Shown: positions 26,815 through 63,042 of the stretch, piece after piece
Position numbering within the stretch: the stretch's first letter is position 1
Layout of the letters: each line of letters begins with the position of its first letter
Assembly: GCF_030286045.1 (NCBI RefSeq)
Contig: NZ_CP127390.1
Span: 806,001 to 870,000 of the forward strand
Length of the DNA: 64,000 nucleotides
Source of the DNA: Propionimicrobium sp. PCR01-08-3
GTDB taxonomy: Bacteria; Actinomycetota; Actinomycetes; Propionibacteriales; Propionibacteriaceae
Reading direction: 5' to 3'
Notes under the pieces: generated by a model
Seen by the model: the letters and a program-made list of their open reading frames with translations, nothing else
The model's database searches: none
What the model was told of the DNA's origin: nothing
Program-made: the position numbers and the translations under genes

Positions 26815-26830
26815 GCGAGGCCGCCTCTCG

Positions 26831-28088: not shown

Positions 28089-28267
28089 CCACCGCAGACC
28101 AACGATCGCTGTTTCCGGGCCACACTCCAAGCGAGATCGCGCGGCGGTCAAAATGAGTCTCTGCGAGATCCATCGGTGCGAATCGTGACTGCGCCATTAT
28201 GCTGTTGGCAACGGGCGTTGCTTGGCGGTGACCGTCCGGACGAACAAATGGAAGGGGGCACAAGATC

Positions 28268-28636: not shown

Positions 28637-28738
28637 CACCGCCATCGGTTGGTGTTGTGCCAGATATCCTCACCGGCTGAGCTGTCAAGACTTCATTGCA
28701 TTGAAGGCGTGCGATAGGGCTCCTTGTAGTGTTCAATT

Positions 28739-45143: not shown

Positions 45144-45454
45144 TGCGTCGAATTGTTTACTCGCCACGCGCTCGTGAGCAGTTGACGGATCTCTACACTT
45201 GGATCGCTGATCGGTCCGGGTTTCCAGATCGTGCCGAGGGCTACGTTTCGGCGATTTTGGACTACTGCGATGGGCTCACTAAGTTCCCCTTCGTCGGTGT
45301 GGCCCGGGACGATCTTCGGCCCGGTTTGCGCACGATCGGCTTTCGCCGCCGTGTTGTCATCGCATTTGCCGTCACCGATGACACGGTCGAGATTCTCGGT
45401 ATCTACTACGGTGGTCGCGACTACGAGACGCTCATCGCTGGCACAAGATATTGA
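45143..45454 (+). CDS. parE: ParE-family toxin (RelE/ParE superfamily)
   Basis: The 103-residue protein has the ParE pattern RRIVYSPRAREQLTDLYTWI, a central FPFVGVARDDLRPGLRTI and a C-terminal VEILGIYYGGRDYE. ParE toxins poison DNA gyrase, while RelE relatives cleave mRNA; the longer N-terminal helices and the FVG-RDDLRPG core favour ParE. ATG 45143 sits in the ParD stop (TGATG); GTG 45140 is an alternative. Together with ParD it can stabilise the DNA segment that carries it. Confidence 0.88.
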   Translation: MRRIVYSPRAREQLTDLYTWIADRSGFPDRAEGYVSAILDYCDGLTKFPFVGVARDDLRPGLRTIGFRRRVVIAFAVTDDTVEILGIYYGGRDYETLIAGTRY

Positions 45455-45719
45455 CCGCTTGTTGTCGGGCGTAACAACGCTGTCCAGCTAATTTGGTTGC
45501 GAAGGCGCGTGCTCGGTACGCGAGGGAACGGCTCACCGAGACTCGATGATCGACGCAATCACATTGCAAACTCGTCAACGCAAAATTCTCCGCTCTTCAT
45601 AACTTGGGGTCAAGTCACTCGATTGTGATTGATCCACGTCCGTTTGTTAACGGTTTCAGATATGCTTTTTTCTGTTCCGTTTCTAACCAAAGTACGCGCG
45701 TATCACGACGATTCCACTC

Positions 45720-46841
45720 TTAGAGATCACTCGCGTCCAGCTGTCGATAAATTCGGGTGACTAGGCAGTCCGTCCGAAGCATAGTCGAGATCAAAACATT
45801 CGGATTATTCAGATGAGAAGCCCGTTGGGGCTGAGTGAGATACTTGGTGATTCGGTGAGCTGCGTCGTGCCCTCGTGCAACCCCTTGGCGGGCTTCCACC
45901 TTAAGCCTTCGCAGCAACTCCTGAGGTAGAATTGCGGGGTCCAAAGCAACTTCAGCGAGCATGCCAATAGCCGTCATCGTCTTTTCGTCGATCAACATGT
46001 CTAATGAGATGTCCGGCGGAAGTGCCCCCTCCAGGCCGCTGAATTTGTCGCGCAGAAAGTCGCGCAACTCTCTTACCCCAATTACCGCTCGTCCCAGCAG
46101 GAAATCCGATCCCGGAGTCGCATCGGCATACCAACCCTCGCTGATCGCGCTAGCGAGATCAGCGTGCTTTTTCAGGAGTGTCCCTTCAACGATCCATGTG
46201 AGAAATTTTATCCGATTCTCTATTTCCTCGAAAAAGATGTCAGCTCGCTCGAAGTCTTTGAAATTGATGGCGGTGTGAAAGTCGCGCACTGATCTCTCAA
46301 GCTCAATCGCCATGTACGAGTAGTAAACCCAGAGGTCTGGGCTTATGCGGGTGCTCTGTGCATATCTGGCGAAGAGCGCCGTATCTTCGTCAAAAAGCAT
46401 GGCAGCGAGGCTATAGCGAAGGGCCTGAATCTCAGCTAGTTCTGCTTTGCGGCCCTCTTCTTGGTCAGCGTCAGCAAGCAATACTGCTCTGCGAGACACG
46501 GGTGAACATCGTCCGTAAGGATCCATTTTGAAGAGCGCAACGCCAGATTGGTCTGCGTATCCTACGGCCTCCCCAGTGTAGCCACCTGTCGAGTAGAAGA
46601 GGGGAATTCTGTAATCGTGGCATGCTCCCCTCATACGCTGAACGTCGGGGCGTCCGACCGGATTCGCATGAAATTTGACTTGGGCCGCTGCTTGGCTGCT
46701 TTGCGCATCGATGCCGCCGTCTGCACCGCCCGAGGTTGTGGCCGCGTCAATGAAGCCGAAGCTTCTCATATGAACAGCGGCAGCAACTTCAGCTGCCTCC
46801 CAGTCTTCAAGGAAACCCGGGTTGGTCGATGTCTCGCTCAC
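45720..46841 (-). CDS. Mrr-like PD-(D/E)XK nuclease with a helical C-terminal domain
   Basis: The 373-residue protein opens with a restriction-endonuclease-like domain: a helix with Glu (EDWEAAEVAAAVHMRSFGF), then GGADGGIDA with D45 and AAQVKF with Q54-x-K56. These are the D and QxK metal-binding residues of the Mrr-catalytic fold. About 270 residues of mostly helical sequence follow with no motif I recognise. Its base composition is less GC-rich than proB. Mrr-type proteins often restrict modified or foreign DNA. Placement next to a toxin-antitoxin pair between duplicated proB tails points to a defence-type cargo, but the function is not demonstrated. Confidence 0.72.
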   Translation of the reverse strand: MSETSTNPGFLEDWEAAEVAAAVHMRSFGFIDAATTSGGADGGIDAQSSQAAAQVKFHANPVGRPDVQRMRGACHDYRIPLFYSTGGYTGEAVGYADQSGVALFKMDPYGRCSPVSRRAVLLADADQEEGRKAELAEIQALRYSLAAMLFDEDTALFARYAQSTRISPDLWVYYSYMAIELERSVRDFHTAINFKDFERADIFFEEIENRIKFLTWIVEGTLLKKHADLASAISEGWYADATPGSDFLLGRAVIGVRELRDFLRDKFSGLEGALPPDISLDMLIDEKTMTAIGMLAEVALDPAILPQELLRRLKVEARQGVARGHDAAHRITKYLTQPQRASHLNNPNVLISTMLRTDCLVTRIYRQLDASDL

Positions 46842-46988
46842 AGCAAGACCATATCGTTAACCACCGACAACATGAGTCGGTCAGCCGGAGTCCGTGGATC
46901 TCCTTGAGAGTGCTGGCCTTCGGGTGAGGTTTCTTGCAGTCGGTGTCGGCGGCTGTGACCGAGTCCTGGGCCAGAGTCCGTCGCGCTT

Positions 46989-47145
46989 GGTGGCCCGTGG
47001 CCTGGTGAACTTCGGTGCGGAGGAGCTACCAGCGATGCTGGGGCGCCGCTCGTCCGATCTCGCGGCGGACCTGGGCGCCCAGTACGAGCGGGAGATCGTC
47101 CACCGTGATTCGCTGATTCTGCTCAATCACGTCGCTGATTCCTGA
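46989..47145 (+). pseudogene. Diverged extra copy of the proB 3' end
   Basis: About 51 codons reproduce the end of the ProB PUA domain and its stop with a single amino-acid change (D to G in NFGAEELP); the nine other differences are synonymous. The upstream part of the open frame (from 46894) is unrelated to ProB, so no kinase is encoded. It marks the far end of the 44.8-46.99 kb cargo. Confidence 0.95.
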
Positions 47146-49752: not shown

Positions 49753-50286
49753 TTACCGTTCTGCACTCGCGATACAGATCAGCAGCGGGACTATTCGCGC
49801 GGGTGGAATCTCGTAGCTTCCCCGTCCGGTTTGGCGCACCCAACCGGTGGCGACCAATTGGCGTAGATGGTGATGCAGCTGGCCGGTCGTGCCGAGTGAC
49901 TCAATTGCGGCCAGGTCCGCCGTGTGGTGAACACCGGAGAGAATCTGCCGGAGTAGTTCAACGCGCACCGGGTGGCCAAGTGCCGCGAATACTGCGGCTT
50001 GTTCGGACCAATCCGACTCGATCAGTCCGGAGGTGCCGATGGTTTGCTGCCAGGCGATCGGTCCACCCTCTGCAAGCGTGAGTGAACCAACCAGCATCAC
50101 CGCACCATCGGACGTTGTTTGGTCATCGGAAAGCCTGGATTGCAGCTCGTTCAGCGCCCAGAATCCATCAGACTCGGTGGTTGGATTGGTGGACGAGGAT
50201 GACTTCTGTGCGCGCTTCTCGAGTTCGTCAACCCGGTTTGACAGATCTCGCAACTCGTCTCGCAGTGACTGCATTGATTCGTCCAT
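49753..50286 (-). CDS. ArsR-like winged-helix transcriptional regulator with coiled-coil N-terminus
   Basis: From ATG 50286 the protein has 177 residues. Residues 1-30 form a coiled coil (MQSLRDELRDLSNRVDELEK) and a Ser/Thr-rich linker follows. The C-terminal winged helix contains FAALGHPVRVELLRQIL and TTGQLHHHLRQLVATGWV, the latter being the recognition helix. The longer ORF start at 50322 is rejected because an inverted repeat in the promoter would then be inside the gene. It probably controls the M23/membrane-protein operon that it heads. No metal-binding cysteines of classical ArsR are present. Confidence 0.78.
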   Translation of the reverse strand: MDESMQSLRDELRDLSNRVDELEKRAQKSSSSTNPTTESDGFWALNELQSRLSDDQTTSDGAVMLVGSLTLAEGGPIAWQQTIGTSGLIESDWSEQAAVFAALGHPVRVELLRQILSGVHHTADLAAIESLGTTGQLHHHLRQLVATGWVRQTGRGSYEIPPARIVPLLICIASAER

Positions 50287-50295
50287 AGATGAAAT

Positions 50296-50313
50296 AATAC
50301 GTACTTCCGTATT
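50296..50313. promoter_or_regulatory. Inverted repeat at the ArsR-like gene promoter
   Basis: AATACG-TACTTC-CGTATT, arms of 6 with a 6-base spacer, lies 10 bases upstream of the regulator start. It is a likely autoregulatory operator. It is also only about 60 bases from the start of the divergent TPP riboswitch. Confidence 0.5.
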
Positions 50314-50354
50314 GCCGTACAAGTGTTTGGGGCGGGCACAACCGTCGAGGTTGC

Positions 50355-50360
50355 TATAGT
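50355..50360 (+). promoter_or_regulatory. -10 box of the thiamine-precursor transporter operon
   Basis: TATAGT lies 11 bases before the first conserved base of the TPP riboswitch, so transcription should start just ahead of the aptamer. No convincing -35 is seen. Confidence 0.5.
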
Positions 50361-50370
50361 GATCGCCGAA

Positions 50371-50454
50371 GACACGGGGTGCCGTGAAACCGCTTGGTTC
50401 TCACGGCTGAGAAATGACTCGTTGAACCTGATCTCATTCGGATGAGCGGAGGGA
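50371..50454 (+). ncRNA. TPP riboswitch (THI element)
   Basis: The conserved parts occur in order: ACACGGGGTGCC at the 5' side, then GGCTGAGAAATGACTC (the pyrimidine-sensing CUGAGA core), TGAACCTGATCT, a variable stem CTCATTCGGATGAG, and GCGGAGGGAT at the 3' end. The final GGAGGG (50448-50453) is also the ribosome site of the ABC ATPase gene, so ligand binding that closes P1 should block translation directly. It identifies the following operon as thiamine-related. Confidence 0.93.
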
Positions 50455-50459
50455 TGTCG

Positions 50460-51287
50460 ATGACCATGGACGCGCCGGCCGATTCTTCGGGACCCGCGAT
50501 CGTCGTCCACGATGTCGGCTACCGCTATCCGAAAGATGAGCGCGCTGTTCTGGGAAGGGTGCAGCTCACCGTGTCCGAAGGCCGACACATCGCATTGATC
50601 GGACGCTCCGGTTGCGGCAAATCCACGCTGCTCTCCATCATCGCCGGGCTGCGCGAACCCGATGCCGGCACGGTCAGCGTGCTCGGACGCGACGACCCCG
50701 CCGGCAGGCTTGCGTCCTGCGCGATCATGCCCCAGGGCGATTCATTGCTGCCGTGGCTGAACCTGCTCGACAATGTCGCGATCAGCCTGCGCAACCGTGG
50801 CATCAAACGCCCTCTCGCCAGAGACCGAGCACATGCCACGTTGCAGCAATGGGGTTTGTCGGATTGGGAATCTTCGCGTCCGGCCGCACTATCGGGCGGT
50901 ATGCGCCAGCGCGCCGCACTGGCCCGCGCACTGCTGGCCGACAAGCCCATATTGCTGGCGGACGAGCCGCTCGGGGCCCTCGACGCCATCACCCGCGCCG
51001 AGATCCAGCAATGGCTACGCGAAACGATGATTCGCACCAAGGCAACCATGATCATGGTCACCCACGACGTGGACGAAGCCCTGCTGCTCTCCGATCGAGT
51101 CGTGCTGCTGGCCGGGACGCAGCCGGGGGAGCCGGCCAGCGCGATCGCCTCGTGGCCGGGCTGGTTCGCCGATGACAGACCGCGTGACCGGCTGCTCGGA
51201 GATCCCGAATTCGCGCGCGCCCGCCAAGAGATCCTGGGATCGTTCGCGGGTCATCGGATGGTGGAAGACGGGCGGGAACAGCTATGA
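50460..51287 (+). CDS. thiZ: ABC transporter ATP-binding protein for thiamine pyrimidine precursor
   Basis: The ATG at 50460 is 6 bases after the GGAGGG that belongs to the riboswitch; starts at 50442 and 50454 overlap the aptamer or the ribosome site. The 275-residue ATPase has Walker A GRSGCGKST, signature LSGGMRQRA and Walker B ILLADEPLGALD, close to the nitrate/taurine/ThiZ subgroup. With the permease and the NMT1-like binding protein it forms a ThiXYZ-type importer of HMP-like pyrimidines such as formylaminopyrimidine. The C-terminal 50 residues are variable. Confidence 0.88.
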   Translation: MTMDAPADSSGPAIVVHDVGYRYPKDERAVLGRVQLTVSEGRHIALIGRSGCGKSTLLSIIAGLREPDAGTVSVLGRDDPAGRLASCAIMPQGDSLLPWLNLLDNVAISLRNRGIKRPLARDRAHATLQQWGLSDWESSRPAALSGGMRQRAALARALLADKPILLADEPLGALDAITRAEIQQWLRETMIRTKATMIMVTHDVDEALLLSDRVVLLAGTQPGEPASAIASWPGWFADDRPRDRLLGDPEFARARQEILGSFAGHRMVEDGREQL

Positions 51288-51506
51288 GCTCTCGCGACTC
51301 GTCAAGGACCAAGAGGCGGCAATTTGCGAATGTGGATGCTCTGACATCCGAGAGCAATCGATCGCATGGGGAACCTGACCGCACGGTCAAACGCCCTGGC
51401 GATGAATCCTGGTCCTGCGCTTTCCGGGTTGGTCTGCAGGGTGCTCGGGACGGGAATGCTTTCCCTGAAGTGATATCCGGTTCGGCTGTGATGGGAAGGT
51501 GGGCTG
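51288..51506 (+). other. 219-base gap inside the thi transporter operon
   Basis: Such operons usually have overlapping genes, yet 219 bases separate the ATPase and permease. A 78-codon frame (51284-51520) begins in the ATPase stop (ATGA) but shows no similarity and overlaps the permease start in another frame, so I do not call it a gene. GGGAA-TGC-TTCCC could form a small hairpin near 51451. It may be an insertion or the remains of a longer permease N-terminus. Confidence 0.4.
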
Positions 51507-52340
51507 ATGCCGGATTCTAGGAAGACCCATAAGCCTACGGCCCACCATTCCGGAGTTCCCGCAGGGAGGGGATGGTTCTGGAAAATGGCAGTTCCACCGA
51601 TCATCACGATCGTCCTGGTGCTGACGTTGTGGATCGTTATTACCGCAGGCGGGTTCGTGCCCGACTACGTCATTCCCTCACCCGGGGCGGTGCTGCACTC
51701 GCTGGTCACCACCTGGCCGACCAGACTGGCTTCCGCCACCTGGCTCACTCTCGCGGAAACCGTGGTTGGCGTGCTGGTCGGGGTCATGGTGGCCGTGATC
51801 ACCGTGGTCATCTCGGGCTACTTGCCGGTGATCGGCACCGCGATGACTCCGTTGTTGATCGCGTCTCAGGCGATACCGGTGATCGTCGTCGGCCCGCTGC
51901 TGACCATCGCGCTGGGCTATGGCATGAGCCCCAAGGTGATCGTGGTCGCCTTGCTCTGCTTCTTCCCGGTCGCACTCAATCTGCTGGCCGGCATTCGCTC
52001 GGTGGACGCCCGTTTGGTCGACACGATGCGCAGCCTGCACGCCTCCAGACATGAACTGTTATGGAGACTACGGCTGCCTGCGGCGGCACCCCGAGGGTTC
52101 GCGGGACTGCGAGTTTCGGTGACGTTTGCGCCGGTCGCCGCGGTCTTCGCCGAATACACCGGATCGACCAACGGCATCGGATACCTGATGCTGCAGGCCA
52201 TCCCACGCATGCAGACCGACTTCGTCTTCGCGCAGGTCGTCGTCCTCACCGTCATGTCGGCGACCTTGCTCGGCGCTGTGACGCTGCTCGAGCGTCTGGT
52301 TTGTTCTTGGAACACGCCCACACGAGAAAGCGAAGCCTGA
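51507..52340 (+). CDS. thiX: ABC transporter permease for thiamine pyrimidine precursor
   Basis: The 277-residue BPD-type permease has six helices and the EAA-loop region (LRLPAAAPRGFAGLRVSVTFA) that contacts the ATPase. FVPDYVIPSPGAVLHSL is typical of the nitrate/taurine/ThiX permeases. The ATG follows GGGAAGGTGGG. It shares the TPP riboswitch with the ATPase gene. The 120-base gap before the binding protein contains a good ribosome site but no terminator. Confidence 0.88.
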   Translation: MPDSRKTHKPTAHHSGVPAGRGWFWKMAVPPIITIVLVLTLWIVITAGGFVPDYVIPSPGAVLHSLVTTWPTRLASATWLTLAETVVGVLVGVMVAVITVVISGYLPVIGTAMTPLLIASQAIPVIVVGPLLTIALGYGMSPKVIVVALLCFFPVALNLLAGIRSVDARLVDTMRSLHASRHELLWRLRLPAAAPRGFAGLRVSVTFAPVAAVFAEYTGSTNGIGYLMLQAIPRMQTDFVFAQVVVLTVMSATLLGAVTLLERLVCSWNTPTRESEA

Positions 52341-52461
52341 TGGCCGTGGAACAGATAACCACATTGGCCAGCACCGAGTCGGCCCGGGCGAGTGGCGGAT
52401 CGATACGAAGCCATGTGAACTCGGCCTGCCCGTGCAGGCCACTCAACGGAGGAGCTGAGAA

Positions 52462-53496
52462 ATGAAGACAGCAATGCGATGGGGTAGGGCGAAATTCGGA
52501 TCATTGACAGCAGTCACACTGGCGGCCTGCCTGGCGTTGACCGCATGCGGCTCATCGCCGGACGATCCCACCACATCGGGCGCGGGGGAGAGCGGCGCGC
52601 AGGTGAGCGTCCTGCTGGATTGGGCACCCAACCCCGACCACGTGGCACTCTATGCGGCTCAGCACACCGGCGCGTACCAGGACGCCGGGGTCAATGTGGC
52701 CTTCACCACGCCCTCGAACACCGCGGACGCCGCCCGCGAGGTATCGCTCGGACGCGTCGACCTGGCGGTCTCGTATGAGCCCGACACCCTGATCGCGATC
52801 GACTCCGGGTTGGACGTGATTTCGGTGGCGGCCTTGATTCCGACCTCGCTCACCTCGCTGATCACCAGATACGACTCGGGAATCGAATCCGCCGCCGACC
52901 TCGGCGGCACGACGATCGGATTGTCCGGGCTGGCCTCCCAAGAGCCGACCATCGATTTCATCGCCCGCAATGCCAACGTCGACCCGTCGTCCATTCAACT
53001 GCCGAATGTGCAGCAAAGCCTCAACCAGGCGCTGCTGACCGATCAGGTGGACGCCATCTTTGGCGCCTTCCGCAACATCGAGGGAGTCGAACTCGCCGAA
53101 CAGGGAGACTTCCGCATTCTGCCGGCCACCGATCTGGGCGTGCCCGACTATGCCGAACTGGTCATCATCGCCAACCCGCAACGCCTGCAAGACGACGCCG
53201 ACTACGCCGAACGGGTCAGAGCATTTCTTGCCGGCACCGCCCAGGGCCAACAAGCCGCCATCGCCGACCCACAGGCAGCGATCGACGCGCTAACTCCTGA
53301 GACCGAGGGATCGTACGACCCCGAGGTACTCGCGAAGATGGTGGACGCCACAATCGAGCTTCTTCCGACAGACGGCTTCGGCACCCAATCAGGCGACGAC
53401 TGGGCAACCTATGCGTCCTGGATGTTCGACAACGGATTGCTCGAATCGGCTGTCGATGGGGCCGACGCCACGACGAACGAATACCTTCCGGCATGA
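52462..53496 (+). CDS. thiY: NMT1/THI5-like substrate-binding lipoprotein
   Basis: The 344-residue protein has a lipoprotein signal (LALTACGSS, lipidated Cys at 29). The NMT1/THI5-like domain follows, with LLDWAPNPDHVALYAAQ, a substrate loop found in ThiY, and VDLAVSYEPDTLIA. It would capture formylaminopyrimidine or a related HMP compound outside the cell. The riboswitch upstream supports this over taurine or nitrate. The last 11 codons (DATTNEYLPA and stop) recur in altered form 74 bases further on. Confidence 0.87.
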   Translation: MKTAMRWGRAKFGSLTAVTLAACLALTACGSSPDDPTTSGAGESGAQVSVLLDWAPNPDHVALYAAQHTGAYQDAGVNVAFTTPSNTADAAREVSLGRVDLAVSYEPDTLIAIDSGLDVISVAALIPTSLTSLITRYDSGIESAADLGGTTIGLSGLASQEPTIDFIARNANVDPSSIQLPNVQQSLNQALLTDQVDAIFGAFRNIEGVELAEQGDFRILPATDLGVPDYAELVIIANPQRLQDDADYAERVRAFLAGTAQGQQAAIADPQAAIDALTPETEGSYDPEVLAKMVDATIELLPTDGFGTQSGDDWATYASWMFDNGLLESAVDGADATTNEYLPA

Positions 53497-53537
53497 CACA
53501 ACAGGTCACCCACTGCGTCCGCGTACACTCGACGCCC

Positions 53538-53570
53538 GACGCCGCGGCCAACGAATACCTTCCGGCATAG
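53538..53570 (+). repeat. Short diverged copy of the thiY 3' end
   Basis: These 33 bases encode DAAANEYLPA and a TAG stop, against DATTNEYLPA and TGA at 53464-53496; 28 of 33 bases agree and the block AACGAATACCTTCCGGCAT is identical. Only 41 bases separate the two. It resembles the folC and proB tail duplications without any cargo. Confidence 0.8.
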
Positions 53571-53591
53571 CGATACCAGTATTGTGCTGCC

Positions 53592-54299
53592 ATGACCGAC
53601 CTCGGTGAACAACTGCACGAGTCGATTGACCTGGGACTCGCCCGCATTCGCGACGGCAAAAATCGCTATCGGCTGGGCGTGATGGGTGGCACTTTCGACC
53701 CTATCCATCATGGGCACCTCGTGGCGGCCAGCGAAGTCGCTGCCCGCTTCGATCTGCAAGAAGTCGTGTTCGTGCCCACCGGCACTCCGTGGCAAAAGGC
53801 CGGACGAAAGGTCAGCAATCGCGAAGACCGCTATCTCATGACGGTGATCGCGACAGCGTCCAACCCAAGGTTCAGTGTCTCCAGGGTCGATATCGACCGG
53901 GTGGGCAACACCTACACGGTCGACACCCTCAAAGAGCTCAAGTCCGAACGCGGCGAAGATGTCGACCTGACCTTCATCACTGGTGCTGATGCTTTGGGCT
54001 CGATTCTCACCTGGCGTGGTGCAGAGGAGCTCTTCGATCTGGCCAACTTCGTCGGGGTGTCTCGTCCCGGCGTCGATCTGAGAGCCCGCGATCTCAGCCA
54101 TCTGCCTGCCGAGAAGGTGACCAGGTTGGAGGTGCCGGCACTGGCGATCAGCTCGACCGAGTGCCGCAACAGGGTGCGCGAGGGGTTGCCGCTGTGGTAT
54201 CTGGTGCCGGATGGCGTCGTCCAATATGTTGCCAAACGCGGCCTCTATACCCCGGCAAATGAGGGGGAAACGCTGGAGGCCGATAATGTCGACTGGTAA
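53592..54299 (+). CDS. nadD: Nicotinate-nucleotide adenylyltransferase
   Basis: The 235-residue enzyme has the nucleotidyltransferase motif [12 protein letters not shown] (residues 32-43) and the C-terminal [13 protein letters not shown] signature. It converts nicotinate mononucleotide to deamido-NAD. The 27 residues before the core are longer than usual, and a downstream start is possible though none is well placed. It begins the conserved nadD-rsfS-phosphatase cluster that in relatives follows proB/proA; here 9 kb of accessory DNA intervenes. Confidence 0.95.
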
Positions 54300-54341
54300 G
54301 CAAGGATTTCTAGATCAGCACATGATCAGTCTGGATGTGAT

Positions 54342-54896
54342 GTGAGCGCTACCGAAGAAGCCATCAAGATCGCCCGGGTCGCCGCGCAGGCCGCCCACGA
54401 CAAGAAAGGCCTCGACATCGTCGCGTTCGATGTGTCGGAGCCGCTGGCCATTGCCGACATCTTCTTGATCGTGAGCGCGAACAACGAGCGATTGGTGGGC
54501 GCGATCGTCGACGAGATCGAGGACAACCTGATCATCACCGAAGACCTGCGTCCGCTTCGCAGGGAGGGTGGCTCCGAGAACCGCTGGGTGCTGCTCGACT
54601 ACGGCGATGTCGTGGTGCACGTGCAGCACACCGAAGAACGTGAGCTCTATGCGCTGGAGCGGCTGTGGAAGGACTGCCCGGTCGTCGATCTCAAGCTGGC
54701 GGACGACGAGTCTGCTTCCGGTTCCGATTCGGCAACCGATGAACAAGGCTCCGCTGTGTCGGACGAGGACTTCGCCGCTGGCGAGGAGTTCACCGGGACC
54801 CGGCAGTCGTTCGCCGAGCGCGACGGCCTGGAAGAGGTCCTGTCACCCACCGGCCATCGCGATCAGCCGGCTGAGGATGCGGAGGGCGACGCGTAG
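54342..54896 (+). CDS. rsfS: Ribosomal silencing factor RsfS
   Basis: The 184-residue protein has the RsfS fold in its first 115 residues (DKKGLDIVAFDVSEPLAIAD, FLIVSANNERLV, WVLLDYGDVVVHVQ, YALERLW). It binds L14 and blocks subunit joining when nutrients are scarce. The remaining 65 residues are an acidic Ser/Asp/Glu-rich tail beyond the normal family length. It starts at GTG 54342. The downstream phosphatase GTG overlaps the stop codon. Confidence 0.94.
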   Translation: MSATEEAIKIARVAAQAAHDKKGLDIVAFDVSEPLAIADIFLIVSANNERLVGAIVDEIEDNLIITEDLRPLRREGGSENRWVLLDYGDVVVHVQHTEERELYALERLWKDCPVVDLKLADDESASGSDSATDEQGSAVSDEDFAAGEEFTGTRQSFAERDGLEEVLSPTGHRDQPAEDAEGDA

Positions 54897-55531
54897 TGGC
54901 CGACGCACGCACTCACATCATCTTGTGGCGGCACGGGCAGACCGCCTACAACGTAGAACATCGATTTCAGGGGCAGCTCGATGTGCCGCTGAACGAGGTG
55001 GGGCTCAAGCAGGCCGAGATCGCTGCGGAGCCTTTGTCGAAGCTGCCGATTGACGCGATCTATGCCTCCCCGCTGCATCGGGCCCATGTCACTGCTGAGG
55101 CGTTGGCCCGTCGGGTCGACCTGCCCATCACGAGCGATGTCCGCCTCGAAGAGGTCAACGTCGGTTCCTGGGAAGGCATGCTCGCAGACGACATCTATCG
55201 CGAGAACCCGGACTTTGTTGCCGGGCTCGCCGAGGGACGTGACGTGCGGCGCTCACCGACGGGGGAGACCTGCACCGAGGTGGCAGTGCGTATCTCCGAG
55301 GCCTTGCGCGAGATCGCCGCGAAGCACCCCGGTCAGACCGTCGTGGTGGCCAGCCACGGATTGGCGATCAGGATGGGAACCGCAGGCGTGCTCGGCTGGG
55401 ACTACGAATCCTCCACGAGCCTGGCGGGCATGTCGAACTGCGGCTGGACGGTGCTCGGTGCCCGCACCGAGGGCTATTGGAAGCTGGTCAGCTGGAACCA
55501 GCAAGCCGAGGGGCTCCTGCTCAGCGACTAG
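54896..55531 (+). CDS. Histidine phosphatase family protein
   Basis: The 211-residue protein has the phosphohistidine motif WRHGQT (R12, H13, G14) and the second catalytic His in VVASHGLAIR. In actinobacteria the gene after rsfS often encodes glucosyl-3-phosphoglycerate phosphatase (GpgP), while homologues next to cobD can be alpha-ribazole phosphatase (CobC). Both contexts apply here, and the sequence does not decide. The start GTG lies in the rsfS stop; the gene converges on cobD with a four-base overlap. Confidence 0.9.
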   Translation: MADARTHIILWRHGQTAYNVEHRFQGQLDVPLNEVGLKQAEIAAEPLSKLPIDAIYASPLHRAHVTAEALARRVDLPITSDVRLEEVNVGSWEGMLADDIYRENPDFVAGLAEGRDVRRSPTGETCTEVAVRISEALREIAAKHPGQTVVVASHGLAIRMGTAGVLGWDYESSTSLAGMSNCGWTVLGARTEGYWKLVSWNQQAEGLLLSD

Positions 55532-56511
55532 CGAGTTCTTCTTTTCGTCACCAGCCCGGTCACGATTGTCATCGTCGCGGCGATGCCTGCGGACGCTGCT
55601 GTGACCGCGCTGACAAGTGTGGACGCCCGCCTGATCGTCCGTACATCTGGCGCCGGGGTACCGGGATCGCCGAGCGCAGGACGCTCCTCTACGCGTCCGT
55701 GATAGTCGGACGCACCACCCAGGTGGGTGCCGAGGGCTCCCGCCCAGGCCGCCTCGCACCAGCCGCCGTTGGGGCTGGGGTGGTTGCGGGCATCGCGCAT
55801 CATGACCCGCCACGCGTTCGGCGCGCTGCCGCCGATGGTGGGAGCCAATGCGCTGGAGATCGCACCCGACAGCCTGGCCGGAATATAGGCGGCCACGTCG
55901 TCCACGATCGCAGAGGCCTTGCCGAAGTTCTCGTACCGCGGATTGTGATAGCCAACCATCGCGTCCAAGGTGTTGATGGCCCGATGCAGCAGCAGCCCCA
56001 GAATTCCTGCGGCCGATCCCCAGAACAGTGAGCAGACCACGGCGTCCGAGGTGTTCTCGGCGAGCGATTCGACGGTGCCTCTGGCCAGTTCGGCAGCGTC
56101 CAGGTCTTCGGGGTTGCGGCTGCACAGGTGGGTGAGCCGGTCCCGAGCTGCTGGAATATCGTCGTCCGCCAGATCGTCGGCCATCTGCTCGCCTTCGGAA
56201 GCGAGGTTGTGCCCGCCGAGGACCGCCCAGGTTGCGGTGGCGGTGAGCGCCGCACGCGCCAGCGGGTGGTTGCGAGTGAGACGGTCGGCCGCGAGCCCAA
56301 TGGCTGCTACGGGTGCAAGCGCGGTCGCCGTGAACAGTGCTCCGCGGCCGATCGAGTCTTGGTACAGGTGCTTCTCCAGCCACAACGCCCAACTGCCGAA
56401 CCAGGCAACCGGGTGATGCCGCTTCGGATCCCCGAAGACGGCGTCTGCGGCGGCTCCTGCCATCAGCCCGATCGCGGTTGCGGACGATAGCGATTCAATG
56501 CGCAAGCTCAC
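55528..56511 (-). CDS. cobD: Adenosylcobinamide-phosphate synthase
   Basis: From GTG 56511 the protein has 327 residues. It contains the CobD/CbiB motifs GDPKRHHPVAWFG, NTLDAMVGYHNPRY and SPNGGWCEAAWAGALG in about five membrane helices. It attaches aminopropanol phosphate to adenosylcobyric acid in B12 synthesis, fitting a propionate-type actinobacterium. TACCCT lies exactly 6 bases before the GTG, which favours this start over an ATG 48 bases upstream. No other cob gene is nearby except possibly the convergent phosphatase. Confidence 0.93.
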   Translation of the reverse strand: MSLRIESLSSATAIGLMAGAAADAVFGDPKRHHPVAWFGSWALWLEKHLYQDSIGRGALFTATALAPVAAIGLAADRLTRNHPLARAALTATATWAVLGGHNLASEGEQMADDLADDDIPAARDRLTHLCSRNPEDLDAAELARGTVESLAENTSDAVVCSLFWGSAAGILGLLLHRAINTLDAMVGYHNPRYENFGKASAIVDDVAAYIPARLSGAISSALAPTIGGSAPNAWRVMMRDARNHPSPNGGWCEAAWAGALGTHLGGASDYHGRVEERPALGDPGTPAPDVRTIRRASTLVSAVTAASAGIAATMTIVTGLVTKRRTR

Positions 56512-56825
56512 GCCATCAGGGTAGCCGGGGCGTGATGGCTTCGGCTGCCGCAGTTGCATGTGTTCGCTATATCAGCGGACCCGAGTCTGGTGGGGCTCAG
56601 GCGGCGTCCGCGGCCTCCGGGCCTGATCGTCCGGCTGTGAAACCACGCGCTGGGTACCTGTCCGATGCGACGGCCAAACGCGAAGTTGTTATCGCCGCAA
56701 CTATCCATCGTGCCGTGACCGGCATTGGCCGAGGGAGATGTGTCGCGTTGTCTGAATTTGGCGCGGCTTGAAGCGGTGCGCTAGTGTTTCTCTGGTCGCC
56801 GCGAGAGTGGTGATGCCAGAAATCT
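56512..56825. other. Intergenic region between cobD and tRNA-Ala
   Basis: I see no supported gene here. On the minus strand the reading frame of the glycosyltransferase gene runs through part of it (to 56597), but that stretch looks like read-through, not conserved protein. The cobD promoter lies at its left end and the tRNA promoter presumably at its right end. Confidence 0.5.
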
Positions 56826-58252
56826 GGGGCATTGGCGCAGTTGGTAGCGCGCTTCCATGGCATGGAAGAGGTCAGGGGTTCAAATCCCCTATGCTCCACA
56901 TAATCGGCAACGTTCGAACCTTGCCCCGCTTCAATGCGGGATGGGGTTCGGGCGTTGACGTTCTTCGTTTTCGCGGCGGTGTCGAGGATCGTGGCGACGG
57001 GCTCGGCGGCCTCGATGGTGACCTTCTCCTCGTCGTCGATGGTGGTTTTGGTGAACAGGGCGGTGAGCGCCGTGATCTGGCGGCGCGCCACCCGGGAGGC
57101 CCGCGGGGTGGGGCGGCGGACCTGCTCGTAGAGCCACTCGAAGGTGTCGAGAGTGCGGGCGAAACCGTGCGCTTCCACAATGTGCCGTCCCGCCTCGGCC
57201 ATCCTGTGGCGCAGCCCGGCGTTGCTCAGCAGCTGGGTCAGGTGCCCGGCCAGGGCTGTGGCGTCACCGGGGGTGTAGAGGAACCCGTTGTCGCCGTGGT
57301 GCACCAGATGGGGCAGGGCCATCGCGTCGGCGGCCACCACCGGCATCCCGGTGGCCATCGCCTCCAGGGTCACCAGGGACTGCAGTTCGGCGGTGCCGGG
57401 CATGGCGAACACGCTCGCCCGGCCGTAGGCCTTCAGCAGCTCGGCGTCGGACACCTTGCCCAGGAAGCGCACCCGGTCGGGGCCCAGATCCAGGTCGGCG
57501 GCCAGTCGCTCCCACTCGGTACGTGCCGATCCGGCTCCGACGGTGTCCAGGCGCCCCGGCACGTCATCGGGCAGCAGGGCCATCGCGGCGATGATGTCCT
57601 CCAGATGCTTCTCCGGATCCAGTCGGCCGACGAACAGCACCACCGGGTCCCCGGACATCACCCGGGGGATCCGCCGGTAGCGGTCCAGATCGACCCCGTT
57701 GGAGACCGCCAGTCCGTCGATCCCGGTGTCGGCGTACATGAGGTCGACCGCCTTCTGAGTCGGCGAGGTGACGGCGTCGGCCTGCAGGTAGACCCGCCTC
57801 ACGTCGCGCCACAGCGCCTTGGCGACCGCCGGGCGCAGCATCTCGGGACAGGGCAGATGGTCGAGCACGTTCTCGGGCATGAGGTGGTTGGTGGCCACGA
57901 TGCCGATGCCGCGGCGCCTGGCCTCGACGACCAGTGCCCGACCGAGGAAGAAGCCGCTCTGGACGTGGACGGCGTCGGGACGGACGTCGTCCAGGAGCCT
58001 TCCCGCCGCGGCACGGATGCCGGTCGGCCGGGTCACCGGGAAGTCTCGGTATCCGGCGTAGCGGAAGGAGCGGAAGCGGTGGACGACGACGCCGGCGTCG
58101 TCGATCAGCTCACCCGGTGTGCCGACGGGGGAGGGGCAGGCCAGGTGCACCTGGTGCCCGCGGGCCGCCAGGCCGCGGGCCAGACTCCGGGTGAACTGCG
58201 CGGCGCCGTTGACGGTAGGCGGGTAGGTGTCGGTTCCGATGAGGATCCTCAT
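56597..58252 (-). CDS. GT4-family glycosyltransferase with read-through C-terminus
   Basis: The 551-residue frame begins with a typical GT-B glycosyltransferase of family 4: TYPPTVNGAAQFTRSLARGL, VLFVGRLDPEKHLEDIIAAM and ELQSLVTLEAMATGMPVVA, with the Glu pair that binds the donor nucleotide. It resembles mannosyltransferases of actinobacterial glycolipid or glycan synthesis. The domain ends near residue 380. The rest includes HRGFEPLTSSMPWKRATNCA, which is the translated complement of tRNA-Ala (56826-56898), and continues past the tRNA. The natural stop therefore appears to have been lost at the island junction. The next gene upstream overlaps by four bases. Confidence 0.82.
   Translation of the reverse strand: MRILIGTDTYPPTVNGAAQFTRSLARGLAARGHQVHLACPSPVGTPGELIDDAGVVVHRFRSFRYAGYRDFPVTRPTGIRAAAGRLLDDVRPDAVHVQSGFFLGRALVVEARRRGIGIVATNHLMPENVLDHLPCPEMLRPAVAKALWRDVRRVYLQADAVTSPTQKAVDLMYADTGIDGLAVSNGVDLDRYRRIPRVMSGDPVVLFVGRLDPEKHLEDIIAAMALLPDDVPGRLDTVGAGSARTEWERLAADLDLGPDRVRFLGKVSDAELLKAYGRASVFAMPGTAELQSLVTLEAMATGMPVVAADAMALPHLVHHGDNGFLYTPGDATALAGHLTQLLSNAGLRHRMAEAGRHIVEAHGFARTLDTFEWLYEQVRRPTPRASRVARRQITALTALFTKTTIDDEEKVTIEAAEPVATILDTAAKTKNVNARTPSRIEAGQGSNVADYVEHRGFEPLTSSMPWKRATNCANAPDFWHHHSRGDQRNTSAPLQAAPNSDNATHLPRPMPVTARWIVAAITTSRLAVASDRYPARGFTAGRSGPEAADAA
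56826..56898 (+). tRNA. tRNA-Ala (anticodon GGC)
   Basis: The 73-base cloverleaf has an acceptor stem GGGGCAT/ATGCTCC with one G-U pair, an anticodon stem CTTCC/GGAAG around ATGGCAT (anticodon 56859-56861), and the T-arm AGGGGTTCAAATCCCCT. CCA is not encoded. The DNA to its right is clearly more GC-rich and accessory, so its 3' end may be an integration site; the matching far-end repeat is not in the window. Confidence 0.95.
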
Positions 58253-59580
58253 GATGCGTTCTCCAGTTCTGTCGGGCTCGTGATGGGTGCATCAGCGCAG
58301 CTGCGGATGTCAGTGCAGTCGCGGACGCCGGCCCGGCGGTAGACGTCCAGAACAGATGAAGTGAAGTGACCGGCGGTGAACAGGTCGCGGGCGCTCATGG
58401 CGCGGCGTGAGGCTTCGATCACCGGCCCGGGGGACAGCGCCAGCCCAGCGAGGATGCTCGCCAGATCGATGCCCGGCTGTCCGGAGATCGGCTTCCCTGG
58501 GCCCTGGTCCTCGAAGGCGGGCATCCCGGCCCCCGGCAGCCCCTTGGTGGCGACTAGGCCCTCAGCCAGGGCCGGGTCGCACCAGATGACGCCGCGCAGC
58601 GCGGTGACGGACTCGGCCACCGTCATCGGCTGGTTGTCCCAGCCGATCGAGCTCAGCACCGTGACGTGATTGCGCCTCAGGCGGGCCGGGATCAGGTGAT
58701 TCGGCAGGGCCCCCGCCAGATGGATTCCGGGCCGCTCGTCGACCATCCGCGCCACCTGGCAGAACTGCGGGCCGGTGCCCACCATGTCCACCCGGAGGTT
58801 GTCGGGTCCGACGGCGTCCAGCGCCTTCAGTGCAGCCTCGACGAACGCCACGACGCGCTTCTCGGGGGTGAAGCGGCCGATCCACAGCACCCGCAGCGGC
58901 CCGGCGACCCTTGTCAGGGGCTCGGCAGCCGGATTCGCGGGAGCCGAGTTGGGCACGACGTCCACCTTCGGCAACCCTGCCCACCGCAGCCTCACAGCCT
59001 GGTGGGCCGAGGGGGAGATCACCCGGTCGACCCGGCGAGCCAGGGTCAGCGTCATGTTGCGCAGCGCCGAGTCGCCGCGGCGCTCCGCGAGGATGTCAGC
59101 GGTGGGCTCCAGGCCGGTGACGGCACGATGGAACCGCGGTACGGCGTGCGCCAGGAGGGTCTGCACCGGCGCCCGGGTCTGCCAGAAGAAGGTGTGCACG
59201 GTCTCGACGGTGGGGATGCCCAGCTCTTTTGCGACCGCGATGGCGGCGGCCGCCAGCCCGAACTCGGAGTGGACGACGTCGACGTTGCGGACATTGAACG
59301 CTTGTCGCAGCCGGGCCCGCAGCCGTTCGGTGTTGCGGATCACCGGCAGGCCCAGTCCGGGCAGGGTGAGCGCGGCGCTGATCGGGAACGTGGTGACGCC
59401 GTCGTGCTCCCCGAGCCGTTCGAGTCGCCCGCTGGGCGGGCTGACCGCCAGCACGTCGGCCACTCCCGACAGCGCTCGGACCTGGTCGGCGTAGGCGTTC
59501 TCGGCGCCGCCGAGATGGGCCAGGGAGTAGTCGGAGACGACTGCGACGCACAGGTCATGGTGACGAGGACGGGTGATCAT
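58249..59580 (-). CDS. GT4-family glycosyltransferase
   Basis: From ATG 59580 (after GGAGGT) the product has 443 residues with a GT-B fold: VVSDYSLAHLGGAENAYADQ at the N-terminus and LRVLWIGRFTPEKRVVAFVEA in the second domain. The region SIGWDNQPMTVAESVTALRG replaces the usual E-x7-E motif. Acceptor and donor are unknown. It overlaps the following glycosyltransferase by four bases, so both probably act in one glycan pathway. Codon use is strongly G/C at third positions, unlike the core genes to the left, which suggests transfer. Confidence 0.83.
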   Translation of the reverse strand: MITRPRHHDLCVAVVSDYSLAHLGGAENAYADQVRALSGVADVLAVSPPSGRLERLGEHDGVTTFPISAALTLPGLGLPVIRNTERLRARLRQAFNVRNVDVVHSEFGLAAAAIAVAKELGIPTVETVHTFFWQTRAPVQTLLAHAVPRFHRAVTGLEPTADILAERRGDSALRNMTLTLARRVDRVISPSAHQAVRLRWAGLPKVDVVPNSAPANPAAEPLTRVAGPLRVLWIGRFTPEKRVVAFVEAALKALDAVGPDNLRVDMVGTGPQFCQVARMVDERPGIHLAGALPNHLIPARLRRNHVTVLSSIGWDNQPMTVAESVTALRGVIWCDPALAEGLVATKGLPGAGMPAFEDQGPGKPISGQPGIDLASILAGLALSPGPVIEASRRAMSARDLFTAGHFTSSVLDVYRRAGVRDCTDIRSCADAPITSPTELENAS

Positions 59581-60533
59581 GGGAACCTCCGGAGGAGTGT
59601 GGACGGGGGGAGTGGGGCGGCTGAAACCGTGAGAGAGCGGCGACACCGAGGGCCGCCACCGCGCCGCAGACGGCCATGCCCGCGATGACCGGGGCCCCGG
59701 CACTGGCGCCCTCGCCGAGGGCGACCATCCCGAAGACGACCGCCACGATCGGATCGATGGTGGTCAGGGCCCCGACGGTCACCTCCGCCCGGCCGGCCGC
59801 GCAGGCCTGCTGGACGATGAGCACCCCGATCACCGCGGCCCCGGCGATGGCCGCGGCGGTGAGCAGCACCGGGGCCGAGGTGATCGCATGCCCGCCGGTC
59901 AGCAGGCGGAGACGAGCTTCACCAAGGCTGCGGTGAGGCCGTAGAAGAGGGCCCCTGCGGTGGCCAGCATCAGGGCTCTGTCGCGGGGGCGGGCCAGCCG
60001 GTGGGACGCCGCCAAGGTCAGGCCGACGACGCCGGACGCCGCGGCGACGACGCCGGCATGGCCCAGATCCGGAGGCTGCGGTGCGCCCGCGTGGCCGCGG
60101 ACAGGGCGGTGAATCCGGCCAGACCGGCGATCGTCACGAGAATCGCGGCCCAGACGAGTTTTCGGGTGCGAGGAGGACGGGGACGTGCGCCGTCGATGCG
60201 AGCGGTCAGCAGCACCGACCAGACGACGGCCAGCACCCCGACCGGCTGGACCACCGAGACCGGGGCCAGGAAGATCGCCGCGATGTTGAGCGCGGTTCCG
60301 GCGATGATGATCGCCATTCCCGCCAGCCAGCGTCGGTCGGTCAGCAGGCCGGCGAGCTGACGCAGGGACATCAAGCCCTCGTCGGACCGGCCAACGGCGA
60401 CCGAGCTGTGCTGGACGGAACTGTGCTGAACCGAGCTGTGCTGAACCACCGATCCGGCGGCCAGGCCGAAGGAGCCCAGCGCGGCCATCAGAATGGCCAG
60501 TGCGACGGTGATCTGCGGGGTGAACGAGCTCAT
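59555..60533 (-). pseudogene. Broken DMT (EamA-like) transporter gene
   Basis: Three frames are needed to read one membrane protein. MSSFTPQITVALAILMAALG starts at 60533. A one-base loss near 60085 shifts to the frame encoding GVVGLTLAASHRLARPRD and GALFYGLTAALVKLV. A second shift near 59905 gives LLTGGHAITSAPVLLTAAAI and the last helices. The order of helices fits drug/metabolite-type transporters with two five-helix halves. Near the N-terminus a 15-bp unit is repeated three times (peptide QHSSV). Unless both shifts are assembly errors, the gene is dead. Its end overlaps the start of the glycosyltransferase gene. Confidence 0.75.
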
Positions 60534-60609
60534 ACCTGAAGCCAACCGTCCGGGCGGCGTCCTGCCATTGCGGCTGTCCGGTGAACCGGGGACGGGTTAA
60601 CCCGACACC

Positions 60610-60990
60610 TCAGGCCAGCCATGCTCGGATGGCCTCTTCCCAGGCCTTGTTCCGATTGGTCTCCATGAATCCCCTGTGGTCGATGAGCAGGTAGAGGCGA
60701 CCCTCGGTCGTGTCCACGATCAGGGGCTTCCCGGAGTTCAGGAGGCCGCCGATGAAGCGCCCGTACAGATCGGTGTAGGTGCGGGTGATCCCCAGAACCG
60801 CCGATCGGGGGAGCCGGAGGGGCCTGCCGACGGACCAGTCGTTCAGCACCAGCTGGTCGGGGGTCAGTTCGATGGTTCCGCGGTGGCGGAACAGTACCTT
60901 CTGGCTGATCCCGCCTGCGGTCCTGTCACCTGCGGTCGCTGCCTCGAGCTCGGTCGCATAGGCTCCCGCGTATTCAGCGCTGCTAATCAT
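60610..60990 (-). CDS. Conserved small protein with PH-like beta fold, unknown function
   Basis: From ATG 60990 (after GGAGAG) the protein has 126 residues. The middle resembles bacterial PH-like domains by pattern only: alternating beta-like segments (VLFRHRGTIELTPDQLVLND, LRLPRSAVLGITRTYTDLYG) followed by a C-terminal helix. It has no membrane segment. It is divergent from the histidine kinase gene with about 190 bases between the starts, so it may be a target of that two-component system. I cannot name a function. Confidence 0.6.
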   Translation of the reverse strand: MISSAEYAGAYATELEAATAGDRTAGGISQKVLFRHRGTIELTPDQLVLNDWSVGRPLRLPRSAVLGITRTYTDLYGRFIGGLLNSGKPLIVDTTEGRLYLLIDHRGFMETNRNKAWEEAIRAWLA

Positions 60991-61177
60991 GGTTTCTCTC
61001 CTGTCGTTGACTGTGAATATGTCACAGTCTGGCCTTGGCGAGAATGAAGGTGAATTCGTCATGAGTCTTTGTTCACCCATACTTTCGGATGCGTTCACTC
61101 ATACCTTGGTACGGGATGTGGAGAGGACCAGTGGATCCGGGCTCATCGATTGGACGGCGCCGGTATCGTGACGCCCT

Positions 61178-62362
61178 ATGGAGCAACCCCCGGTAGTGCG
61201 GTCGCGGGCCCGCGACGTGGCCTCCAACGTCGTGATGACGGTCCTCGCGCTCGTATTCGGTCTCGTGGTCGCAGGATCGCTGTTTCCCGGTATCGCGCGG
61301 AAACCGATGGCGTTGAATGTCATGGACGCTGGACTGGCTGTCCTCGGATTTGCTCTCCTGTGGTGGCGACGGCGATTTCCCCTGTATTTCGCCGCCTATG
61401 TTCTGGTGGCGTCGACGTTCACCACGTTGATCAGCGGTCTGGCCATGGTGGCCGTATTCACCGTCGCCGAATACCGCCGGGCGCCGGAGGCTGTCGGCCT
61501 CTCCGTCCTCTTCTCGCTTGCGGCCTGGCCTAATCTCGCCCTGTACGGGAGCCCCGATACGCCGAAGGCCCCGTGGATCGTCGTCACCCTCGTGCTGACG
61601 CTGTCGTTCACCGGATGGGGAATGTATCTGAGGGCCCGCCGTCAGCTCCTCGCCACGCTCGTCGAGCGGTTGGACCGGGCCGATGAGGAGCGGGTCGAGG
61701 CGGTCGATCGGGCTCGTGCCGCCGAGCGGCGCAGGATCGCCCGCGACATGCACGACGTCCTGTCCTACAGATTCGCGGTGCTCGGTATCCATGCCGGGGC
61801 ACTGGAGATGCGCCCTGATGCGCGGCCTGAGGAGATCGCCACATCGGCCCGAGTGATCCGCGAGACCGTGCACGACGGGCTCGACGAGCTGCGCACCGCG
61901 ATCCGGGCGCTACGGGAGGAGCCCGAGGATCCCGCCAGGGCACCGGCCCCCCGGCTGCGCGACGTCGCCGGACTCATCGATCGGGTCCGCCATGCCGGTG
62001 GCGACGTCAGCTTCAGCGCTGATGGAGTGGATCTCGACCGGGCCGGATCCCAGTGCGGCATCGCGGCGTACCGGATTGTCCAGGAGGGCCTCACCAATGC
62101 GGGCAAGCACGCTCCCGGCGCCCCCGTCCGGGTGGCGCTCGCCGTGAGTGACGACCTGCACCTGAGCATCCTCGTGGAGAATGAACGGGCCCCACGCCAG
62201 GAGGAGCCGCCGTCGGGCGGCGGGGTGGGACTTCTCGGTCTGTCGGAAAGGGCGGCCGCCCTGCACGGGAGACTGGAGTACGGATCCGCACCAGGAGGCG
62301 GATTCCGGGTCTGTGCGGAGCTACCTCTTACCTCGGAGGCGACCGATGAGCAGCGATCATGA
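61178..62362 (+). CDS. Sensor histidine kinase, NarL/DesK type
   Basis: The 394-residue protein has five or so membrane helices in the first 150 residues, a coiled linker, and a HisKA_3 dimerisation region. The phospho-acceptor His lies in ERRRIARDMHDVLSYRFAVL, and a HATPase domain follows (N-box GLTNAGKHAPGAP, G-box GGGVGLLGLSERAAALHG). The short membrane sensor without a large external loop suggests sensing within the membrane. TATCGT lies 8 bases before the ATG, compatible with a leaderless mRNA. It overlaps the response regulator gene by four bases. Confidence 0.9.
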   Translation: MEQPPVVRSRARDVASNVVMTVLALVFGLVVAGSLFPGIARKPMALNVMDAGLAVLGFALLWWRRRFPLYFAAYVLVASTFTTLISGLAMVAVFTVAEYRRAPEAVGLSVLFSLAAWPNLALYGSPDTPKAPWIVVTLVLTLSFTGWGMYLRARRQLLATLVERLDRADEERVEAVDRARAAERRRIARDMHDVLSYRFAVLGIHAGALEMRPDARPEEIATSARVIRETVHDGLDELRTAIRALREEPEDPARAPAPRLRDVAGLIDRVRHAGGDVSFSADGVDLDRAGSQCGIAAYRIVQEGLTNAGKHAPGAPVRVALAVSDDLHLSILVENERAPRQEEPPSGGGVGLLGLSERAAALHGRLEYGSAPGGGFRVCAELPLTSEATDEQRS

Positions 62363-63042
62363 CTGACACGCCGGTGCGGGTGCTTCTGGTGGACGACGAC
62401 GCGTTGGTGCGCTCCGGCCTGTCGCTGATGCTGGGCGGCAGAGATGACCTTCATGTCGTCGGGCAGGCCGGGGACGGGCGGGCAGCCGTGGAGGCCGTCG
62501 GCGCGGGAGGCGTCGACGTCGTGCTGATGGATGTGCGGATGCCCGTGCTGGACGGCATCGAGGCCACCCGGAAGATCACAGGCAGCGGTGCCGCAACCGA
62601 CGTCCTCATCCTGACGACCTATGCCGAGGATGAGCTCGTGCTGCGTGCTCTGGCCGCCGGGGCGGCCGGCTATATCGTCAAGGACAGCCCGCCGGCTGAG
62701 ATCGTGCGCGCCGTCCACGCCGTCGCCGCCGGGGACTCGGTGCTGTCACCGGGAGTGACGCGGGCCGTCGTCAAGGCCCTTGGAATCAGCGGTTCAGGTG
62801 GAGTGGGGGATCCCGGCCGGCGGGGCGCCCGCAGCCGCCTGGACCGCCTCACCTCGCGGGAGCGGGAGGTCGCTGTGCGCCTGGCCCAGGGCGATTCCAA
62901 TGCCGCCATCGCCCAGCGGCTCTATATGGGGGTGCCGACCGTCAAAGCGCACGTCTCCAGCATTCTTGCCAAGACGGGGACCACGAACCGGGTTCAGGCA
63001 GCCCTGCTCATTCATGACGCCGGCCTCGATCCGGAATCATGA
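62359..63042 (+). CDS. Response regulator, NarL/LuxR family
   Basis: The 227-residue protein has a receiver domain with the acidic pair DDD near residue 12, the phospho-Asp in VVLMDVRMP and the switch Thr/Lys (LILTTYA, IVKDS). A LuxR-type helix-turn-helix follows (LTSREREVAVRLAQGDSNAAIAQRL, VPTVKAHVSSILAKTGTTNRVQA). The linker between the domains is Gly-rich and longer than usual. Paired with the kinase by ATGA overlap. Targets are unknown; the divergent PH-like gene is the nearest candidate. Confidence 0.92.
   Translation: MTDTPVRVLLVDDDALVRSGLSLMLGGRDDLHVVGQAGDGRAAVEAVGAGGVDVVLMDVRMPVLDGIEATRKITGSGAATDVLILTTYAEDELVLRALAAGAAGYIVKDSPPAEIVRAVHAVAAGDSVLSPGVTRAVVKALGISGSGGVGDPGRRGARSRLDRLTSREREVAVRLAQGDSNAAIAQRLYMGVPTVKAHVSSILAKTGTTNRVQAALLIHDAGLDPES

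Follow-up and report, generated by a model that had tools for sequence, protein, structure and literature searches.

In integrases of the SSV type, the splitting of the integrase gene occurs at a tRNA gene. Serine integrases are widely used in genome engineering, the choice between integration and excision being usually ascribed to a separate directionality factor, and we know of no large serine integrase with the attachment site of its element (attP) inside its own gene (int). In the Myxococcus phage Mx8, attP lies within the integrase coding sequence and integration replaces the 3' end of int; according to a review, this change modified the specificity of the enzyme without inactivating it (PMC6070905). 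The Islander study treats the Mx8 integrase among the tyrosine integrases (PMC4383910). A literature search of incomplete coverage, which took in PMC6070905, PMC4383910, PMC12884075, PMC5704250 and PMC12765450, gave no report of serine integrases that target tRNA genes and carry attP within int, and their absence in print is therefore unproven. Here we describe a locus of Propionimicrobium sp. PCR01-08-3 where a glycosyltransferase (GT) gene continues in frame through the complement of a tRNA-Ala gene, and where an integrase of this unusual kind appears to have left its last codons. The window is the whole stretch analysed, 64,000 nt of contig NZ_CP127390.1 (positions 806,001 to 870,000).

As called and translated, the fusion open reading frame (ORF) occupies 56597-58252 on the minus strand and encodes 551 aa, from an ATG start to a TGA stop at 56597-56599. 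An intact tRNA-Ala(GGC), detected with ARAGORN, lies entirely within it on the opposite strand, and the frame extends for 229 nt beyond the 5' end of the tRNA. This agrees with an earlier sequence-only reading of the same DNA, according to which the GT frame runs antisense through the whole tRNA and 230 bases beyond. From the start codon to the stop, the frame comprises the following parts:

57077..58252, minus strand: body of a GT4 glycosyltransferase, 392 codons, truncated at its 3' end and horizontally acquired (Pfam domains, homology to genome G010).
57062..57076, minus strand: junction or filler of 15 nt, the gap between the G010 homology (which ends at 57077) and the integrase homology (which starts at 57061).
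56900..57061, minus strand: last 54 codons of a large serine integrase gene, a C-terminal remnant that continues the frame of the GT (integrase homology).
56896..56899, minus strand: putative attachment core GTGG (CCAC on the plus strand) at the tRNA 3' end (limit of the identity between G007 and G005, start of the helix-turn-helix tails).
56826..56899, plus strand: tRNA-Ala(GGC), intact and antisense to the fusion frame (ARAGORN).
56597..56825, minus strand: remainder of the frame to the TGA stop, antisense of the native spacer between the tRNA and cbiB (matches to G005 and G007 up to 56756).

We hold the following explanation to be very probable. An integrative element would have used the 3' end of tRNA-Ala for attachment, and the attP of this element would lie within the gene for its large serine integrase. 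The protein predicted from that gene in the circular form carries one or two helix-turn-helix (HTH) domains at its C-terminus. Recombination at the GTGG core, in or adjoining which the crossover may be placed (56896..56899), would split int. The integrase body would remain at the left attachment site (attL), its frame running on into the tRNA in antisense; the part coding for the HTH would come to lie at the right one (attR), where it has no conserved start. In the genome of the window, the element would have decayed and lost its integrase body, and the foreign GT would now end in frame in the last 54 integrase codons, inheriting their read-through of the antisense tRNA.

The integrase remnant is the first support of this explanation. 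The segment 56900-57061 falls within an 81% nucleotide match to the integrase gene of the related genome G005 and its flank, and is 74% identical in nucleotides, over the stretch, to one of the two integrase genes of G007 (int1). The homology holds in frame and is to the C-terminal end of the G005 integrase (L156:8532-10406, 624 aa) and of G007 int1, tblastn giving 59% aa identity with an E value of 5e-10. The G005 gene flanks tRNA-Ala on the side where the remnant lies, and its own frame passes through the complement of the tRNA; the read-through of the GT is thus inherited from an integrase gene and was not created by the fusion event, as had been proposed. The fusion had also been held to have been made at the tRNA by joining the GT to chromosomal DNA. 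The place stands, this being a tRNA-targeted insertion site, and the direct joining does not, since 54 integrase codons and a 15-nt filler intervene. A simple read-through artefact, in which a deletion joined the GT to the DNA flanking the tRNA with no integrase involved, would fit a foreign block that abuts the tRNA region and a GT deprived of its own stop, but the homology of 56900-57061 to the G005 and G007 integrase genes, which share its frame and its side of the tRNA, makes such an artefact extremely unlikely in our eyes.

The antisense strand of tRNA-Ala(GGC) contains no stop in the phase of the fusion, so its crossing is automatic once entered and is no statistical surprise by itself. 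A peptide of the GFEPLTS type is found in the translated GT tail. The point needing explanation was the stop-free arrival of the ORF at the tRNA, for which the integrase homology accounts. With 54 C-terminal codons remaining, the window ORF has none of the Resolvase, Recombinase and zinc-ribbon domains that occur in the integrases of G005, of both G007 elements, of G040 and of the tRNA-His element of the same genome, the zinc ribbon of the G005 integrase falling just short of the threshold (25.2 bits for a cut-off of 25.3). These integrases also gave sequence matches to the TP901-1 and A118 structures. A search for a repeat of the tRNA-Ala 3' end to the right of the window had been suggested. 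There is none: a 24-mer searched with up to 3 mismatches matches the tRNA itself and two distant tRNA-like sites, and no long repeat of a tRNA 3' fragment, which as attR is the mark of islands made by tyrosine integrases, was found in the island. Serine integrases use a very short core, and the missing long repeat is thus expected.

The position of the core is suggested by G007, where two elements stand in tandem at the tRNA. In the proximal element, the integrase frame (int2, 670 aa) continues across the tRNA. The distal int1 equals the G005 copy at 499/500 nt up to TTATGTGGA, the identity ending at GTGGA, then diverges and ends in a 92-aa tail bearing an HTH. We take this tail for the right end of the proximal element, which places the attachment core inside the integrase gene.

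The read-through is general among related integrases. Searches in 198 genomes of the family gave 60 loci, and 36 were added by hand from the hit lists (40 regions were picked and 36 used; four longer ones were not counted, and many near-identical tRNA-His integrases were not fetched), making 96 loci or, L171 and L260 being duplicates, 95 distinct ones. An antisense tRNA lies downstream of the integrase in 75 of the 96, and the frame reaches it stop-free in 74 of these 75, the sole exception (L254) having a stop within the integrase. The other 21, without a tRNA call, include contig ends, HTH endings and a few other endings. A phylum-wide sample of 396 genomes contained 23 with matches at E<=1e-80, in 27 loci (one being again the tRNA-His integrase of the window genome); 20 of these have a tRNA, which is entered in 19 cases and not in L326. 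Continuation of the integrated frame into the DNA of the bacterial attachment site (attB), as in Mx8, was therefore found in 74/75 and 19/20 loci. The tRNAs entered, of 13 kinds, are those for Ala, His, Val, Lys, Met, Leu, Pro, Arg and Ile. The phase of entry into the tRNA is identical in 71 of the 74 loci, which might suggest that the antisense-tRNA peptide is itself useful to integrated integrases as a C-terminal signal for stability, tRNA contact or regulation. We find this quite improbable: the read-in length varies from 1 to 186 codons over the 13 tRNA kinds, and a constant phase is expected anyway where conservation extends both to the core and to the integrase frame at that point.

If int is split on integration, its displaced 3' end should lie at the other end of the element. 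A search with the 92-aa tail in the same 198 genomes gave matches in 56 of them at E<=0.001, of which many are weak. The 41 best tail rows (E<=5e-16) were then paired with 27 int2-type integrases of at least 79% identity, fragments of the same gene and a broken copy (G045:C129) being left out. For 22 of the 27, a tail stands at a distance of 4.9-19.7 kb, on the side and strand expected; the contig of the other five extends 0.1 to 5.9 kb (<6 kb) on the element side, and they decide nothing. The single tail on the wrong side within 100 kb is that of the other G050 element. Among the 41 tails, 19 are unpaired with an int2-type integrase, some of them lying, by inspection, near integrases of other subfamilies. 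One further HTH tail (L157:8252-8512, in G004:C151), 0.8 kb from tRNA-Ala and on a contig without an integrase match among the matches listed, is probably a decayed element.

All 28 tails examined start at GTGG with variable DNA upstream (30 tail loci were fetched; L284 and L288, where the match runs from residue 15 on, were omitted). The phase at this start is partly given by construction, the script having sought an in-frame GTG, and L286 was taken three codons late. Among 17 int2-type tails, L270 and L283 being excluded for internal stops, differences at the three codon positions amount to 0.149/0.167/0.373 (12,246 codon pairs), a pattern showing that the tails are coding and under constraint at the protein level. 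The model of the int2-type tail is a three-helix HTH (mean predicted local distance difference test score, pLDDT, of 69; 85-93 in the helical blocks). A structure search with the tail gave nothing at E<=0.001, the weak HTH matches beyond this limit including IstA, Tc3, Hin and Sin; its best sequence match in the PDB is 2lvs (E 0.0011).

The far-end HTH fragment could also be a separate small gene, for example for an excisionase or directionality factor, starting at the core GTG and matching the integrase frame by incident. The core GTG is a legal start codon, an ATG or TTG follows three codons on in most int2-type tails, and a regulator so placed would sit at attR only once integrated. Against this, the DNA upstream of the core is variable and, by eye, shows no conserved ribosome site; 9 of the 28 tails have no ATG, GTG or TTG in their first 15 codons save the core GTG; and tandem arrays yield ORFs that join an integrase in frame to the HTH tail of the neighbour (L164, L166 and L177; L250, where the source of the tail is deduced). 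We consider a separate gene unlikely, and return to the tail as the severed end of the integrase.

Rejoined in silico at the core, integrase and HTH tail form one open frame in 19 of 21 pairs; a first script taking the nearest GTGG gave 14/17, G055 opened with its other GTGG and four further pairs were open (lengths run from stop to stop, with no start codon required; 21 of the 22 pairs were used). The genome of the window itself carries an intact element at tRNA-His (G000:C1:701746-741039), in which the integrase body meets the core at 741039 and the tail starts at 701746; rejoined, they give an open frame of 721 codons whose tail has two HTH stretches (Pfam). A displaced 3' end of int, in frame at the other end of the element, is demonstrated by these pairings and joins (22/27 and 19/21) in relatives and by the tRNA-His element, and not for the decayed element of the window. 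In tandem hybrids, the body of one element stands in frame with the HTH tail of its neighbour (L158:17421-19373, L166, L177, L250).

Contig G040:C16 (L298-L300) holds an integrase frame of 726 codons with two C-terminal HTH units and no tRNA. It was considered as a closed circle with an unsplit gene but kept out of the attP forms, because there is no overlap between its ends, it lacks a tRNA and a tandem array is equally possible. An origin of the integrases in phages or plasmids was likewise set aside, the 352 phage and 324 plasmid records that match int2 being all below 60% identity (23-35% among the matches listed). IMG/VR gave one locus, 42% identical to int1 and without a tRNA call, whose frame ends in a peptide resembling an antisense tRNA; IMG/VR searches with int2 and with the tail gave no matches.

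The comparisons of sequence establish where the segments come from, that the read-through is general, that bodies pair with tails and are compatible with them in frame, that the core is shared, and that tail and phase are conserved. On this basis, attP appears to lie inside int, and integration appears to sever the HTH domain of the integrase. Several observations weigh against this reading. The integrase sequences are related and are not independent trials, and the counts overstate the support. Three loci enter the tRNA off phase (L217, with a frameshifted integrase, L251 and L252), and 7 of the 74 frames come to a stop no more than 3 codons from the end of the tRNA. Two of the 21 joins failed, in G131 (a stop in the tail) and G130 (a frameshifted integrase), and G055 and G171:C102 have two GTGGs each, with an open frame for one only. 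The broken int2-type copy G045:C129 has no convincing tail in the first 20 kb of its 31.7-kb contig, its one weak match to the tail profile lying inside the broken integrase itself. The expected right end of the island in the window genome (~G000:C1:880 kb) is frameshifted, and its link to the window element is deduced. Finally, no free circular element was seen, and no close relative among phages, plasmids or IMG/VR.

On the other side of the junction, the GT is a newcomer, and its present ending is foreign to it. The fusion ORF contains both GT4 domains (PF00534 Glycos_transf_1, 4e-34; PF13439 Glyco_transf_4, 3e-25), which cover residues ~14-367 and end about residues 357-367. The GT shares 83% aa and 82% nt identity with its homologue in G010, another genus, up to 57077; in seven genus mates, the best match is at 31-35% aa identity, none being higher. 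Past the position aligned to residue 378, the window protein has 173 residues for a median of 13 (range 4-93) in 66 homologues (66 of the 73 loci given, with at least 40% identity and a closed ORF). None of the 66 has this ending, and residues 401-551 match no ORF of the GT homologue loci at E 0.01. The G010 GT ends at its own stop 47 residues past the position aligned to residue 378, in sequence unlike that of the window. The sequence-only reading was right in this respect: the GT has lost its own stop, and the extension is foreign to it. We accordingly give scarcely any credence to the extension as the natural C-terminus of a GT subfamily, for which the open and unbroken frame would speak, since it occurs in 0/66 homologues and the closest one, G010, ends in 47 unrelated residues. 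The GC-rich DNA had been thought to begin right at the tRNA 3' side; it does not, 56900-57061 having 61% GC and 57077-58252 71%, with foreign-genus homology from 57077. Two neighbouring features complete the locus:

57077..63035, no strand assigned: foreign GC-rich block with two glycosyltransferases, a DMT-like ORF (below the family cut-off), a sensor kinase and a response regulator.
55528..56559, minus strand: cbiB, native neighbour of the tRNA (NF002276, 2e-114).

The foreign block is collinear with G010 (L154:4136-10105; 82.3% over 6 kb) and has 69.5% GC, compared with 63.3% at 50000-56500. In G002, a cbiB match lies ~110 bp from tRNA-Ala, for which reason the side of cbiB and the tRNA is taken as native and the GC-rich GT side as the newcomer. 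The sensor kinase and the LuxR-type response regulator form a pair at 61178-63042. Local GC dips to 54-60% at 26001-29000 and 45001-47000 may mark other foreign DNA. In G005 and G007 (L155, L156, L158), the tRNA-Ala and its elements are inverted, relative to the window genome, with respect to cbiB and a downstream PrsW-like gene (named by eye).

Just right of the window, within the island, a TrwC gene (relaxase and helicase, G000:C1:870912-874379) suggests a conjugative or mobilizable origin; its membership of the same element is putative. At G000:C1:about 879850-880425, a second C-terminal integrase fragment precedes a double-HTH stretch that lies in a different frame. The stretch, identified by eye and by its resemblance to that of G040:C16, is perhaps the right end of the decayed element. 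A profile made from the examined tails gave no match in this island. We infer that the island is a tandem of two decayed elements, the first ~17 kb long.

What remains in the window is a relic: the fusion arose by evolutionary accident, and its cause is now clear; comparison with relatives indicates that an unrelated gene captured an orphaned integrase end as a by-product. The stability of the GT fusion protein is a matter of inference. The circular integrase–HTH fusion would presumably be made and active, and the loss of the HTH may change the activity or direction of the integrase, the integrated, tail-less form being altered or inactive. On a larger scale, we see even chances that a clade of tRNA-targeting large serine integrases, spread across the Actinomycetota, carries attP inside int, each integration swapping the C-terminal HTH domain or domains for a host antisense-tRNA peptide. 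This would act as a one-way switch, in which the circle makes an HTH-bearing enzyme able to integrate and the integrated copy a tail-less one, inactive or altered until restored by excision, and tandem elements at one tRNA would trade HTH tails. If so, a natural family that alters its own C-terminus by integrating would allow direction control to be tested cleanly, would supply many integrases that target tRNA 3' ends, and would explain a class of odd proteins with GFEPLTS-like peptides at their end. Serine integrases that target tRNA genes and appear to remove their own HTH on integrating are worth testing.

Such comparisons extend to several known systems. ORFs of the GFEPLTS type, arising from antisense tRNA, are annotated as spurious proteins; the same peptide occurs in the GT tail, but here the frame ends a real integrase or GT gene and is not a free-standing false ORF. 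With TP901-1, A118, phiC31 and Bxb1, the integrases of the relatives share the Resolvase, Recombinase and zinc-ribbon domains. Mx8, as described in the review (PMC6070905), resembles the present system in having attP inside int and the 3' end replaced on integration, and gives a precedent for the principle. It differs in being of the tyrosine family, whereas large serine integrases are concerned here, and the part cut off consists of one or two HTH domains kept as a recognisable fragment at the far end. The archaeal integrases of the SSV type, named beside Mx8 in the Islander study (PMC4383910), likewise extend across attP, but belong to the tyrosine family and to archaeal viruses.
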